64,000 nucleotides of DNA. It comes from Psychroflexus salarius. Its GTDB lineage: Bacteria; Bacteroidota; Bacteroidia; Flavobacteriales; Flavobacteriaceae. This document shows positions 23,608 to 64,000 of this stretch, one piece after another. The notes beneath the pieces are model-generated. The model did not search any database and was not told where the DNA came from. It was given only the letters and a program-made list of their open reading frames with translations. The number at the start of each line of letters is the position of its first letter. Within the stretch, counting starts at the first letter, position 1. Position numbers and translations under genes: made by a program. The stretch is from positions 310,001 to 374,000 of the forward strand of contig NZ_FQTW01000001.1 in the NCBI RefSeq assembly GCF_900129035.1, in the 5' to 3' direction.

Positions 23608-23692
23608 CGGAGAAAGAGGGATTCGAACCCCCGGAGGTGTGACCCTCAACAGTTTTCAAGACTGCCGCATTCGACCACTCTGCCATTTCTCC
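23608..23692 (-). tRNA. tRNA-Ser (anticodon UGA)
   Basis: An 85-base class II tRNA read on the minus strand. The acceptor stem GGAGAAA pairs with TTTCTCC, discriminator G. The D arm contains AGAGTGGTCGAATG. The anticodon loop is CTTGAAA with anticodon TGA. There is a long variable arm, and the T arm ends GGTTCGAATCC. CCA is not encoded. It reads serine codons UCN, mainly UCA. The region 23464-23878 contains only this gene, its promoter and terminator, and leaders of the flanking genes. Confidence 0.97.
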
Positions 23693-58492: not shown

Positions 58493-60664
58493 ATGACAAA
58501 TATTGAAGAAAAAGCTTTACAAGATTTAGAATTTAACATAGTTACTCAGCAGCTTTCTGAGTTTTGTGTTACAGACATAGGAAAAGCAAAAGCACAAAAA
58601 CTTCAACCCTATTCTAAGCAACAACAAATCTTATATCAAATTGATCTTACAAAAGAATACAAATCATCTGAACTAGAAGATCATTCAATACCTAATCATG
58701 GTTTCGATGCCATTTCAGAAGACGTGAAACTTCTAAAAATTGAAGGTTCAAAACTAGAGTTATTAGGTTTCAGGCGTTTACATTCAATTTCAGTAACTAC
58801 AAATATTCACCTTAAATTCTTCCATAAATATCAACCCATTTATCCTAAGTTACACTCTAAGTCACAACAAATTACGTATACTGAAGATGCAATTTTGGCC
58901 ATTGAAAAAGTTGTAAATCGATTTGGTGAAATAAAAGATACCGCTTCTAACGAACTAGCATCGATAAGACGTGGTATCAATATTTTAAAAGGTAAAGTCA
59001 ATTCAAGTTTCAGTAAAGCCTTGTCCAGATATAGCAGTTATGGCTATTTAAGTGACATTAAAGAGTCTATTGTAGATAATGTGCGTGTTTTAGCCGTACC
59101 AGCAATGCATAAACGCAAAGTAAAAGGTAGTATGTTAGGCAGCTCTAAGTCTGGTAGCCTGATTTATATACAGCCCGAAGAAACCCATGAAGCCGAACGC
59201 GAGCTCAGCAATTTACTGTATGAAGAAAAAGAGGAAATCAATAAAATTTTACGTGAACTTACCGAATTTATTAGACCATTTGCAGATTTATTTCTAAGCT
59301 ACCAAAATTACTTAAGCGATATTGATGTAATTGCTGCTAAAATTAAATATGCTGAGCTCTACAACGGTGTTATGCCAAAGATTTCAACTGAAAAAGAAAT
59401 CTATTTAAAAGAAGCATATCATCCACTTCTACTTATTAATCATAATAAAATTAATAAGAAAACTTACCCGCAAGACATCAGTTTGAACAAGAAAATGCAA
59501 ATTATTGTTATCTCAGGTCCAAATGCAGGTGGTAAAAGTATAACTCTAAAAACAGTTGGTTTACTGCAGTTAATGCTTCAAAGCGCGATGATGCTTCCGG
59601 TACATGAATTTTCACGCATCAGTATTTTTGATAAAATTTTAACTGATATCGGTGATAACCAAAGCATAGAAAATCATTTAAGCACCTACAGTTACCGTCT
59701 TAAGAATATGCGTAAATTTTTAAAAACTTGTAATGCCAAAACCTTATTTTTAATTGATGAATTTGGTACAGGAACCGATCCTGAATTAGGTGGTGCACTA
59801 GCTGAAACTTTTTTAGAAGTTTTTTACGAAAAAGGCGCTTATGGCATTATTACAACACACTACGCCAACCTCAAAATGATGGCTAATGAAGAAAATGCTA
59901 TTGTAAACGCAAATATGATGTTTGATGGCAAAAGTTTAGAACCAATTTTTAAATTGAAGTTAGGCGAAGCTGGAAGTTCATTCACCTTTGAAGTTGCCCA
60001 AAAAAATGGCATTCCGTATAGTTTAATCAATCGCTCTAAAAAGAAGGTAGAACGCGGAAAAATCAGATTCGATAAAAGCATTGCTAAACTTCAACAAGAA
60101 CGCTCAAAATTGGCTAAAACAACTTCTAAATTAGAGTCTAAAGCCTCAAAAGCCGACGAAGAACAAAAACGTCTAGATGAAATAAATGCTAAAATTCAAC
60201 AAAAACTAGAAAGCTATCAAGAGTTATATGATAGCAATCAGCACATGATTCGATTAGGCGAGAAATTAAATACCTTAGGTTTAAAATATTTCAATAATAA
60301 AAACAAACGCCAACTATATTCTGGTATTTTAAGCATCGTAGAAAAGGAAAATGCAAAGCGAATTAAACAATCAAAAAAAGAGGAAAAACGAAAACAACAA
60401 GAAGAAAAGCAAGTTAAAACTGAAGTCGAAAACAAAATCAGTAAAATTCGCAATAAAAAGAAACAACTTAAAAAAACAGCGTCTAAAACCGAAAACAAGC
60501 CCAAACCAAAGCCTAAATTATATCTTGGCGATAGTGTTAGAATGGAAGATGGCAGAGCTGTTGGTACTATAGACAAAATTGAAAAAAATAAAGCTGTTGT
60601 TAACTATGGTGCATTTACCACAAGCGTTTCTGTAGATCAACTAGAATTGGTTAAACGAAAGTAA
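58493..60664 (+). CDS. mutS2: MutS2 family protein without Smr domain
   Basis: A 723-residue MutS2-like ATPase. The Walker A loop is SGPNAGGKSITLKT (about 343-356), Walker B LIDEFGTGTDPELGGALAET, followed by a long charged coiled coil (about 525-670) and a small C-terminal beta domain (YLGDSVRMEDGRAVGTI). The C-terminal Smr nuclease domain of many MutS2 proteins is absent; the chain ends just after the KOW-like domain. Homologues act in recombination control or ribosome rescue. ATG 58493 is used; a TTG at 58481 is in frame. The DCC gene follows one base after its TAA. Confidence 0.9.
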   Translation: MTNIEEKALQDLEFNIVTQQLSEFCVTDIGKAKAQKLQPYSKQQQILYQIDLTKEYKSSELEDHSIPNHGFDAISEDVKLLKIEGSKLELLGFRRLHSISVTTNIHLKFFHKYQPIYPKLHSKSQQITYTEDAILAIEKVVNRFGEIKDTASNELASIRRGINILKGKVNSSFSKALSRYSSYGYLSDIKESIVDNVRVLAVPAMHKRKVKGSMLGSSKSGSLIYIQPEETHEAERELSNLLYEEKEEINKILRELTEFIRPFADLFLSYQNYLSDIDVIAAKIKYAELYNGVMPKISTEKEIYLKEAYHPLLLINHNKINKKTYPQDISLNKKMQIIVISGPNAGGKSITLKTVGLLQLMLQSAMMLPVHEFSRISIFDKILTDIGDNQSIENHLSTYSYRLKNMRKFLKTCNAKTLFLIDEFGTGTDPELGGALAETFLEVFYEKGAYGIITTHYANLKMMANEENAIVNANMMFDGKSLEPIFKLKLGEAGSSFTFEVAQKNGIPYSLINRSKKKVERGKIRFDKSIAKLQQERSKLAKTTSKLESKASKADEEQKRLDEINAKIQQKLESYQELYDSNQHMIRLGEKLNTLGLKYFNNKNKRQLYSGILSIVEKENAKRIKQSKKEEKRKQQEEKQVKTEVENKISKIRNKKKQLKKTASKTENKPKPKPKLYLGDSVRMEDGRAVGTIDKIEKNKAVVNYGAFTTSVSVDQLELVKRK

Positions 60665-60665
60665 A

Positions 60666-61076
60666 ATGAAAGTCCCTGAAGACAAATGTATTGTATTATT
60701 TGACGGCGTTTGCAATTTATGCAACTCTGCTGTACAAACTATCATTAAATACGATAAGAAAAACAAATTTGTATTTGCAAGTTTACAGAGTGAAATTGGT
60801 AAGCATTTACTAAGCGAACGCGGCATTAATACAAAAACAACAGATTCAATTGTCTTGATTATTCCTAATGAAGCCTATTTTATTAAATCTGATGCTGCAT
60901 TAGAAATCGCTAAAAAGTTATCAGGCATTTTTCAATTTTTTGGGGTGTTTAAACTTCTGCCAAAAGGCTTAAGAGATCAGCTTTATGACTTCATCGCTAA
61001 AAACCGCTATAAATTATTTGGTCAAAAAGCACAATGCATGATTCCCGAAAAACCTGTAAAACATAAGTTTTTATAA
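60666..61076 (+). CDS. DCC family thiol-disulfide oxidoreductase-like protein (DUF393)
   Basis: A 136-residue protein with the family motif FDGVCNLCNSAV (Asp about 12; Cys-x-x-Cys 15-18) and FASLQSEIGKHLL. The fold is thioredoxin-like. Although named DCC for the DxxCxxC motif, its reaction is not established. It is coupled to mutS2 with one base between. No + strand terminator with a T-tract follows; the hairpin after it is oriented for the minus strand. Confidence 0.92.
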   Translation: MKVPEDKCIVLFDGVCNLCNSAVQTIIKYDKKNKFVFASLQSEIGKHLLSERGINTKTTDSIVLIIPNEAYFIKSDAALEIAKKLSGIFQFFGVFKLLPKGLRDQLYDFIAKNRYKLFGQKAQCMIPEKPVKHKFL

Positions 61077-61077
61077 A

Positions 61078-61108
61078 CTAAAAAATCCACCGCAAGAGCG
61101 GTGGATTT
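61078..61108 (-). terminator. Strong intrinsic terminator, minus-strand orientation
   Basis: On the minus strand AAATCCACCGC (61108-61098) pairs with GCGGTGGATTT (61093-61083), loop TCTT, an 11-base-pair perfect stem, followed by a run of T to 61080 and AG. On the + strand the same stem is followed by only three T then CC, so it is weak there. It would end the candidate small RNA and possibly also act as a barrier for + strand transcription from the mutS2 unit. Confidence 0.8.
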
Positions 61109-61160
61109 CCTACCTAACCAAAATATCTCTTTCGAGATAAAACTAACTGTATTTAAAATA
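61079..61160 (-). ncRNA. Candidate small RNA upstream of uvrA (minus strand)
   Basis: About 80 bases. From a start near 61160 the RNA has an AU-rich 5' end, a perfect hairpin UAUCUC-GAAA-GAGAUA (GNRA tetraloop; 61139-61124), an unpaired linker UUUUGGUUAGGUAGG (about 61123-61109) and an 11-bp terminator hairpin ending in a U-run. A consensus promoter precedes it (61166-61196). The RNA-type GAAA loop appears only in this orientation. No open frame of note is inside. No protein-coding role is apparent for this 245-base intergenic region otherwise. It could be a conserved flavobacterial RNA; I cannot name a family. Confidence 0.6.
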
Positions 61161-61165
61161 CAATA

Positions 61166-61196
61166 CAAATTTATATTTAAAATATCAAAAGGCAAA
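61166..61196 (-). promoter_or_regulatory. Promoter of the candidate small RNA
   Basis: On the minus strand TTTG (61196-61193) is followed by a 19-base spacer and the exact -7 element TAAATTTG (61173-61166). This is the full Bacteroidota promoter layout, pointing away from uvrA. Confidence 0.7.
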
Positions 61197-61304
61197 GTAT
61201 AAACAGAGGTTTAATTTATTTTAAAGACAACTTTAACACCTTAAACAAATCTTAATTTGAATAAGCCGAACCATAACAAACAAAACTTAAGACGGTATTT
61301 TAAT

Positions 61305-61312
61305 TACATTTG
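61305..61312 (+). promoter_or_regulatory. -7 element of uvrA
   Basis: TACATTTG matches TAnnTTTG exactly and ends nine bases before the uvrA ATG (61322), so the message would be nearly leaderless. No -33 element at standard spacing. Confidence 0.5.
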
Positions 61313-61321
61313 CAGTTGGCT

Positions 61322-64000
61322 ATGAAAAAAACACAAAATCAACAAATTGAAGTTTATGGTGCTCGCGTTCATAATCTTAAAAATATAGATATAAATATCC
61401 CACGTGAGCAACTTGTGGTTATCACAGGTTTATCGGGTTCAGGTAAATCTTCTTTAGCGTTTGACACGATTTATGCTGAAGGACAACGCCGTTATATTGA
61501 AACATTTTCGGCCTACGCAAGACAATTTCTCGGTGGCTTAGAGCGTCCAGATGTCGATAAGATTGAAGGCTTATCGCCAGTGATTGCAATTGAGCAGAAA
61601 ACAACTTCAAAAAGTCCGCGGAGTACAGTTGGTACAATAACTGAAATCTACGATTTTATTAGATTACTTTTTGCTCGGGTTGGTACAGCTTACAGTTACA
61701 AAACCAACGAAAAAATGTTGAGTTATAGCGATGAGCAGATTCAGCAAAATATTGTTGATAAGTTTAATAATAAGCACATTAATATTTTAGCACCAATCGT
61801 TAAATCGAGAAAAGGCCATTATCGTGAACTTTTTGAACAAATCGCCAAGCAAGGTTTTTTAAAAGTACGCATTGATGGTGAAGTTCGAGACATTGAAAAG
61901 GGAATGAAAATCGATCGCTATAAAACGCATGATATCGAAATTGTAGTTGACCGTTTAAAAGTTTCTAAAGATCAAACTAGCCTGAAACGCTTAAAACGAA
62001 GTATCTCCACCGCAATGAAACATGGCGATAATGTGTTGATGATTTTAGAGCATAAAACCAATCAACCCCAATTTTTCAGCCGTAATTTAATGTGTCCAAC
62101 CACTGGCATGTCTTATCCAAATCCCGAGCCTAACAGTTTTTCATTTAATTCACCTAAAGGTGCATGTCAAAAATGTAATGGTATAGGAGAACTTTATGAG
62201 GTTAATGTTGACCGAATTATTCCCGATCGAAGTTTATCAATTAAACAAGGTGCTTTAGAACCTCATGGGAAGTTTAAAAAAAGTAATTGGGTATTTAAAC
62301 AAATTGAAGCCATCTCAGAACACTTCAACTTTAAGCTTGATACAGCAATAAACGATATTCCTTCAGAAGCGCTTCAGGTCATTTTATATGGCGGCAAAGC
62401 AAACTTCAAAAAATTTAGTGAAGCTTCTAAGGTTAACAAACGCTTTAGTTACAACTTTGAAGGCGTTGCCAAATTTATCGCGCAAACATTTCATCAAAAA
62501 GAATCTTCAGCAAGCTTAAAACGTTGGGCAAAGCAATATATGGACAAAAAAGCATGCGACCAATGTCATGGTTCAAGGCTCAACAAAATTGCAAGACATT
62601 ATAAATTTATTAACAAAACCATCGAAGATTTAATCTCGATGGATATTGATGAATTATTTTCATTTTTTAATTCCGCTGAAAAACAACTATCAACTTCTGA
62701 ACTTAAAATTGCTAAAGAAATTATTAAGGAAATTCAAACTCGGCTGAAGTTTTTAGTTGATGTAGGACTTAACTACCTGAATTTAAATCGTGGTTCAAAA
62801 ACCTTATCTGGCGGTGAAGCTCAGCGTATTAGATTAGCAACACAAATTGGCTCACAGTTAGTTGGTGTCTTGTACATTTTAGACGAACCAAGTATTGGCC
62901 TACATCAACGTGATAACGAAAAACTGATCAACTCTCTTGAAGCTTTGCGCGATTTAGGAAATTCTGTTTTAGTTGTTGAACATGATAAAGATATGATAGA
63001 ACGCGCTAATCATGTAATTGATATCGGTCCGTTTGCTGGCAAAAATGGCGGCGAAATTATCAGTCAAGGTCATCCCAAACATTTACAAAAAGCTTCAACG
63101 ATGACGGCTGATTATCTGTCGGGTAAAAAGCAGATTGAAATCCCCAAAAAACGCCGAAAAGGCAATGGAAAACATCTGCATTTAGTTGGCGCAAAAGGTA
63201 ATAATTTAAAAGATGTGTCTGTAAAAATTCCGCTTGGAACTTTAACGCTAGTCACAGGTGTTTCAGGAAGCGGAAAATCAACTTTAATTAATGAAACGCT
63301 TTACCCTATTTTAAATAATCACATTTATAATGGGGTAAAAGAACCTTTAAGCTTTAAAACAATTAGAGGTTTAAAACACATTGATAAGGTTATTGATATT
63401 AACCAACAACCTATCGGCAGAACGCCTCGTTCTAATCCAGCAACTTACACTGGCGTTTTCAGCGAAATTAGAAACTTATTTACAAAAACACCTGAAGCGC
63501 AAATTCGAGGTTATAAACCTGGGCGTTTTAGCTTTAATGTTAAAGGTGGTCGTTGCGAAACTTGTCGTGGTGGCGGTGTAAAAGTGATTGAAATGAACTT
63601 CTTGCCTGATGTTTATGTAGAATGCGAAACTTGTATGGGCAAACGCTTTAATCGCGAAACTTTAGAGATGCGTTACAAAGGCAAATCAATTAGTGATGTA
63701 CTAGAAATGACTATTGATGAAGCTACTGACTTTTTTGAGCCCATCCCAAAAATATACCGAAAACTCAAAACTATTAAAGATGTTGGTTTAGGATATATCA
63801 CTTTAGGTCAACAAAGCACAACACTTTCTGGTGGTGAAGCGCAACGCATAAAACTAGCAACAGAATTATCTAAACGAAGTACAGGAAATACCTTTTATAT
63901 TTTAGATGAACCTACAACTGGCTTACATTTTGAAGATATTAGAATATTGATGAATGTGCTACAAAAACTGGTAGATATTGGTAATACTGTTCTTATTATT
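61322..64000 (+). CDS. uvrA: Excinuclease ABC subunit A (3' end outside window)
   Basis: The frame is open from ATG 61322 to the window end: 893 codons, about 50 short of the usual ~940 residues. It has two ABC ATPase halves. N-terminal Walker A is [14 protein letters not shown] (about 37-50); the second is [15 protein letters not shown]. The zinc-finger cysteines are present (CQKCNG and [15 protein letters not shown] and CETCMG), and both signature motifs are seen ([24 protein letters not shown]). It is the damage-recognition subunit of nucleotide excision repair. It starts very close after its -7 element. The candidate small RNA lies divergent, about 160 bases upstream. Confidence 0.97.

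Follow-up and report, generated by a model that had tools for sequence, protein, structure and literature searches.

Signals between the DCC and uvrA genes

The analyzed window, a 64,000-nt stretch of the Psychroflexus salarius genome, contains a DCC1-like gene (60666-61076; PF04134) that is preceded by a gene with MutS domain V and followed by uvrA, whose ATG lies at 61325. A DCC-protein scan of genome contigs detected no relative. The minus strand of the DCC–uvrA spacer carries the following features, convergent with the DCC gene and divergent from uvrA:

61166..61196, minus strand: Bacteroidota sigma-A promoter, TTTG-N19-TAAATTTG (sequence match; activity predicted)
~61078..61161, minus strand: predicted noncoding RNA of ~84 nt (fold, conservation, covariance match, free of ORFs)
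61148..61162, minus strand: 5' hairpin UGUAUU-UUA-AAUACA, at the predicted 5' end of the RNA
61124..61139, minus strand: hairpin 2, UAUCUC-GAAA-GAGAUA, perfect (sequence)
61109..61123, minus strand: G/U-rich linker UUUUGGUUAGGUAGG, proposed contact site (conservation, high G count)
61080..61108, minus strand: intrinsic terminator, a perfect 11-bp stem (61083-61108) with a U-run (TTTTTT at 61085-61080)

A first-pass annotation, made from the sequence alone, had described a promoter with a 19-base spacer, a hairpin with a GAAA loop, a linker and an 11-bp terminator stem with a U-run. All of these were found where it had placed them, with both hairpins perfect, while the additional 5' hairpin had been overlooked. 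Since the -7 box is located at -12 to -5 in F. psychrophilum, according to PMC9723704, transcription is predicted to begin near 61161 and to yield an RNA of ~84 nt. As had been claimed, the unit does not appear to encode a protein, with no ORF of more than five codons inside the predicted RNA (61078-61161). Its position divergent from the DNA-damage gene uvrA was also borne out, but nothing beyond that position ties the RNA to uvrA or to DNA damage; the -7 box of uvrA itself, at 61305, is more than 100 bp from the unit.

Full promoters (TTTG-N18..20-TAnnTTTG) occur at 0.107 per strand-kb of intergenic DNA in the sister genome, G020, and at 0.140 in the window's own genome, G000. A 1.6-Mb portion of G020 was screened for strong terminators that are preceded, at a distance of 25-120 nt, by a slightly relaxed promoter and lack an intervening frame of at least 100 aa on that strand. 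The combination is rare, with 15 of 323 terminators retained. Nine of these 15 units hold a tRNA gene (ARAGORN), indicating that the screen selects for genes of stable RNAs; the candidate RNA belongs to the other six. The same rule applied to 400 kb of G000 returned five of 86 terminators, two of them with a tRNA. A separate unit of ~100 nt lacking a tRNA or long ORF was seen outside the window, at G000:C18:243763 (+) and G020:C1:4913 (+); judged by its signals, it is a further small-RNA candidate.

Predicted fold of the RNA

The RNA (61078-61160) folds with a predicted energy of -28.8 kcal/mol (z -5.83), and none of 200 shuffled sequences was equally good. Because much of this signal comes from the terminator, the part preceding the linker was folded separately, and only 0.6, 1.0, and 0.4% of 500 shuffles were as stable in G000, G020, and a third Psychroflexus genome, G003, respectively. 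Hairpin 2 by itself is unremarkable, since the window has 0.58 stems of 6 bp with a 4-nt loop per kb. The two hairpins had been described as GC-richer than their surroundings, which is true of the terminator (50%) but hardly of hairpin 2 (31%), given 25% in the spacer and 32% in the window. The linker stands out by its G content: with seven G residues in the 20 nt before the stem, it is surpassed by none of the 119 terminator-like sites that 400 kb of G000 contain and equalled by one weak site. It had also been described as exposed, and ~11 nt are indeed predicted to be so in G000 and G020, but its last four bases (UAGG) pair with the U-tail in the model, as do still more linker bases in the fold model of G003.

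Conservation and covariation in Psychroflexus

Comparison of 27 genomes of the genus located the unit between DCC and uvrA in G000, G020, and G003. In a fourth genome (G017), the contig starts within the linker and extends across the terminator into DCC, so that the end of the linker and the terminator are retained. No copy of the RNA was detected in the other 23 of the 27 genomes, some of whose assemblies are fragmented, and in these assemblies the matches to DCC and uvrA are not neighbors. Two UvrA-like frames of ~1500 residues, each with one internal TGA, were observed in the genus (G016:C1:204169 and G001:C1:556839).

All three full copies have the TAAATTTG -7 box, at a promoter spacing of 19 in G000 and G020 and 17 in G003. 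Between G000 and G020, the RNA region (61078-61169) is identical at 90 of 92 positions, as compared to 103/122 in the rest of the spacer and 349/411 in DCC. Relative to the more divergent G003, identity drops to 58/122 in the spacer, 17/24 in the 5' part, 268/435 in DCC, and 282/375 at the start of uvrA, whereas the linker region (61104-61123) keeps 18 of the 20 positions that are all identical in G020. In the MAFFT alignment, hairpin 2 (8/16) and the -7 region (8/14) of G003 are out of place, although this genome does have TAAATTTG and the stem; a covariance search matches this copy with 44 bits (E 1.9e-7 for 9957 bases). The 5' hairpin stem is longer in G003, and the GAAA loop of hairpin 2 is replaced by an AUU triloop. 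A motif search of the 27 genomes allowing up to three mismatches gave exact matches only in G000, G020, and G003 among the 30 loci inspected from a longer list of matches. The inspected weaker matches in the genus to a two-sequence covariance model, R1, share little beyond a terminator and were rejected as copies, and an exact-pattern match in a metagenome-assembled genome named Cryomorphaceae (L129) was discarded for lying inside a 323-codon ORF.

Covariation was assessed on an alignment (A5) of three sequences and 23 pairs, in which 98.6% of the cells pair. Both bases differ in four of the 23 pairs, of which one belongs to the 5' hairpin and three to the terminator (G003), a number matched by five of 500 shuffles and compared with zero or one for slid structures; with effectively two lineages and an alignment fitted to the model, this is a weak test. 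All six pairs of the 5' hairpin are kept in the three species, one of them altered on both sides. None of the six pairs of hairpin 2 varies, and hence it shows no covariation. Covariation of the terminator would be expected of a plain terminator too and is not by itself a sign of a gene; it is the 5' hairpin and the linker that argue for one. The search for conservation and compensatory changes proposed in the first-pass annotation had a positive outcome, with the unit in three genomes and changes on both sides of 4/23 pairs, and the conserved stems, -7 box and linker favor its central reading of an sRNA gene that carries both a promoter and a terminator of its own.

Comparison with known RNAs

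To our knowledge, few flavobacterial sRNAs have been characterized. Rfam release 15 returned nothing at threshold in the window except a tRNA at 23608-23692. The best Rfam match at the site, BSnc120, scored 25.9 bits, where the gathering score is 114, and was taken as chance. The Flavo-1 motif (RF01705), likewise a Bacteroidota RNA, had been put forward for comparison, but the candidate RNA does not match its covariance model: there was no match at the gathering score in the window and none up to E 10 in 60400-62000. No description of the candidate RNA appeared among the listed openly available papers on Psychroflexus or flavobacterial sRNAs, and the literature containing the letters of the motif was unrelated, among the matches listed.

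According to PMC7366714, nine of 11 intergenic candidates tested in B. thetaiotaomicron were confirmed by Northern blot, eight of them with a start site and terminator, a rate that favors candidates of the promoter-terminator kind. The B. thetaiotaomicron RNAs GibS and FopS (PMC7366714, PMC11697453) resemble the candidate RNA in being intergenic, with their own promoter and intrinsic terminator, and they possess a conserved single-stranded contact region of the sort proposed here. Their seed is at the 5' end, whereas the candidate RNA has a hairpin there and its conserved segment just before the terminator. FopS is multicopy and binds the RRM protein RbpB, in contrast to the one known copy per genome of the candidate RNA and the lack of a detected RRM_1 protein in G000. 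Rfp18 of Flavobacterium psychrophilum, as described in PMC9723704, is similarly an independent flavobacterial sRNA with strong structure and genus-wide conservation, but its pairing is predicted from the third stem-loop rather than from a linker.

Searches for targets and protein partners of the linker

The linker had been called a natural pairing region, a suggestion that gained no support from target searches. Among 1354 start regions of G020, 102 reached -12 kcal/mol with the linker, as compared to 52-108 with 12 shuffled linkers; duplexes with the linker are thus no commoner than with shuffled ones. A galE-like mRNA was rejected as a target: it offers ten perfect pairs just before its start in G020, but a mismatch breaks them in G000, and only places with three mismatches were present in G003. 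Comparison of G020, G000, and G003 yielded no conserved pairing target. Searches that detected Hfq and RRM_1 in five and two of 14 control genomes, respectively, found neither in G000.

A recurrent element before terminators in Flavobacteriaceae

When R1 was run on 249 genomes of the family, 25 of them, including G000, gave matches at E up to 0.05. Most of the 26 loci read by eye consisted of a terminator alone, but two (L131 and L144) yielded a pre-terminator element. Two other genera have a unit with UUUGGUUGGUUAG before its terminator that faces an alpha/beta-hydrolase gene in convergent orientation, and a similar element, UUUUGGUUGGUUAG, precedes the terminators of unrelated Flavobacteriaceae transcripts. 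The pattern TTTTGGTTRGKKAG occurs at 460 places in the 249 genomes vs. 281 for the reversed pattern. In 30 excised loci, the first matches of 30 genomes, TTTTGGTTGGTTAG had a strong hairpin and T-tract no more than 90 nt downstream at 14 of 21 sites (one of 205 control spans), while variant sequences had a terminator in two of ten cases (one of 95 control spans). Across 148 genomes of the order, the exact element was not enriched (13 matches vs. 29 for the reversed control), so that only part of the family shows the association with terminators.

The alpha/beta-hydrolase-side units, of which eight sequences were aligned, are not in Rfam where searched. RNA-like units of UUUUGGUUGGUUAG and a terminator lie near position 1500 of L131, L144, L176, L188, and L201, and also occur in L180, L189, and L204, the last with UUUUGGUUAGUUAG in place of UUUUGGUUGGUUAG. 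In five genera, they converge with alpha/beta-hydrolase genes that are homologous to one another, and L180, L189, and L204 share other neighbors. Relocation of the candidate unit from this locus was considered and rejected, as another frame directly follows the hydrolase gene in G020, the one genome read among the 12 of the genus that have this gene. Among other contexts, the element was also seen before or after a gene for an Arg/Ser-rich low-complexity protein (L177, L190, L194, L197, L198, L202, and L203), on both sides of it in L197; in L177 and L198 this gene adjoins a UvrA-family gene. The protein is presumably exported, and neither translation nor Pfam supported its identification as an RNA helicase. 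Twenty element loci searched against Rfam gave a single match, to Flavo-1 (RF01705; L183:1268-1416, plus strand, 54.9 bits), which lies shortly before the TTTTGGTTGGTTAG element on the other strand, beside the element and not on it. A general G-rich rule before terminators was rejected for G000, G066, and G020, in which the enriched 6-mers were mostly A/T-rich or derived from tRNAs.

The sister genome has a second unit of this type at G020:C1:1466232 (minus strand; L299), comprising a TATATTTG box, the hairpin AUGAA-GUUUU-UUCAU, AUUGGUUAGUUAG and a terminator. It is convergent with a tyrosyl-tRNA synthetase gene, and a similar element is convergent with the homologous gene in G066. From GGUUAGGUAG in the candidate RNA to GGUUAGUUAG in G020 and GGUUGGUUAG in the family, one base differs per step.

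The linker of the candidate RNA, UUUUGGUUAGGUAG, agrees with the element in its first eight bases, fits only the relaxed pattern and likewise sits before a terminator. It is conceivable, if doubtful, that linker and terminator together are a variant form of an element located at 3' ends in Flavobacteriaceae (UUUUGGUUrGkUAG), to which a common factor would bind, and that the linker is no seed for mRNAs. The recurrence of the element before strong terminators in unrelated contexts and the promoter-hairpin-AUUGGUUAGUUAG-terminator unit of G020 are in line with this, but the second half of the linker differs (AGGUAG vs. GGUUAG), no exact copy of the element was found in G000, the order-wide counts fall below the reversed control and the searches of G000 for Hfq and RRM_1 were negative.

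Interpretation

Another explanation is that the stem mainly forms the 3' end of the convergent mutS2-DCC unit, as a two-way terminator or end stabilizer, to which the minus-strand unit would be incidental. The stem starts 6 nt past the DCC stop codon, and the plus-strand sequence of 61060-61150 folds as well (-25.4 kcal/mol); no other terminator-like site was listed for that strand in 60400-61900. Against this, the stem is followed by TTTTTT on the minus strand but by TTT and then CC on the plus strand, and in four genomes the U-run is retained on the minus strand, with three T residues at most on the plus strand. Nor does the explanation account for the conservation of the -7 box, the 5' hairpin and the linker, and we regard it as unlikely. 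The earlier argument that the U-run and GNRA loop exist in one orientation only holds for the U-run, found solely on the minus strand in the four genomes and indicating that the element is not simply the mutS2-DCC terminator, but not for the loop, which is lost in G003. The stem may nevertheless also stabilize the end of the mutS2-DCC mRNA. Antisense control in cis, by cleavage of mutS2-DCC readthrough overlapping the RNA or through an effect of its transcription on uvrA, would suit a position convergent with DCC and divergent from uvrA that is kept in G000, G020, and G003, but is improbable, as the RNA ends before the DCC stop codon, falls short of the uvrA promoter and would not need a constant linker alongside changing stems.

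The small-RNA reading is the best one. The locus is probably a real gene for a regulatory noncoding RNA, transcribed on its own and restricted to one Psychroflexus lineage, whose product acts in trans via its linker; it would be a new member of an ordinary type of RNA. Counting against this reading are the promoter spacing of 17 in G003, the invariant hairpin 2, the start-region duplexes that shuffled linkers form as often, the partly paired linker in the G003 model and the restriction to four of 27 genomes. From the promoter and terminator signals we infer that RNA polymerase would start at about 61161 from a standard Bacteroidota promoter, synthesize ~84 nt and stop at the intrinsic terminator, and the 5' hairpin and 3' terminator would protect the product. 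The linker, UUUUGGUUAGG(U/G)AGG, is the best-kept unpaired part and the likely working surface, whose action in trans would rest either on base pairing with mRNAs or on contact with a shared RNA-binding factor. Along with its promoter and covarying fold, the candidate RNA offers a single conserved surface that lends itself to direct testing.

By its likeness to the UUUUGGUUGGUUAG element, the linker may serve as a contact site that different 3' ends have in common. We tentatively raise the possibility, itself rather uncertain, that UUUUGGUUrGkUAG is an undescribed, G/U-rich and single-stranded module placed before terminators in Flavobacteriaceae, of which the candidate RNA carries a variant, and that it is common to unrelated sRNAs and mRNA ends, would be recognized by a factor that is neither Hfq nor RRM_1, and would play a role like that of the enterobacterial Hfq-binding 3' module. 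If the link to the element is true, it would provide a handle on what, if anything, replaces Hfq in those Bacteroidota without Hfq or RRM_1.
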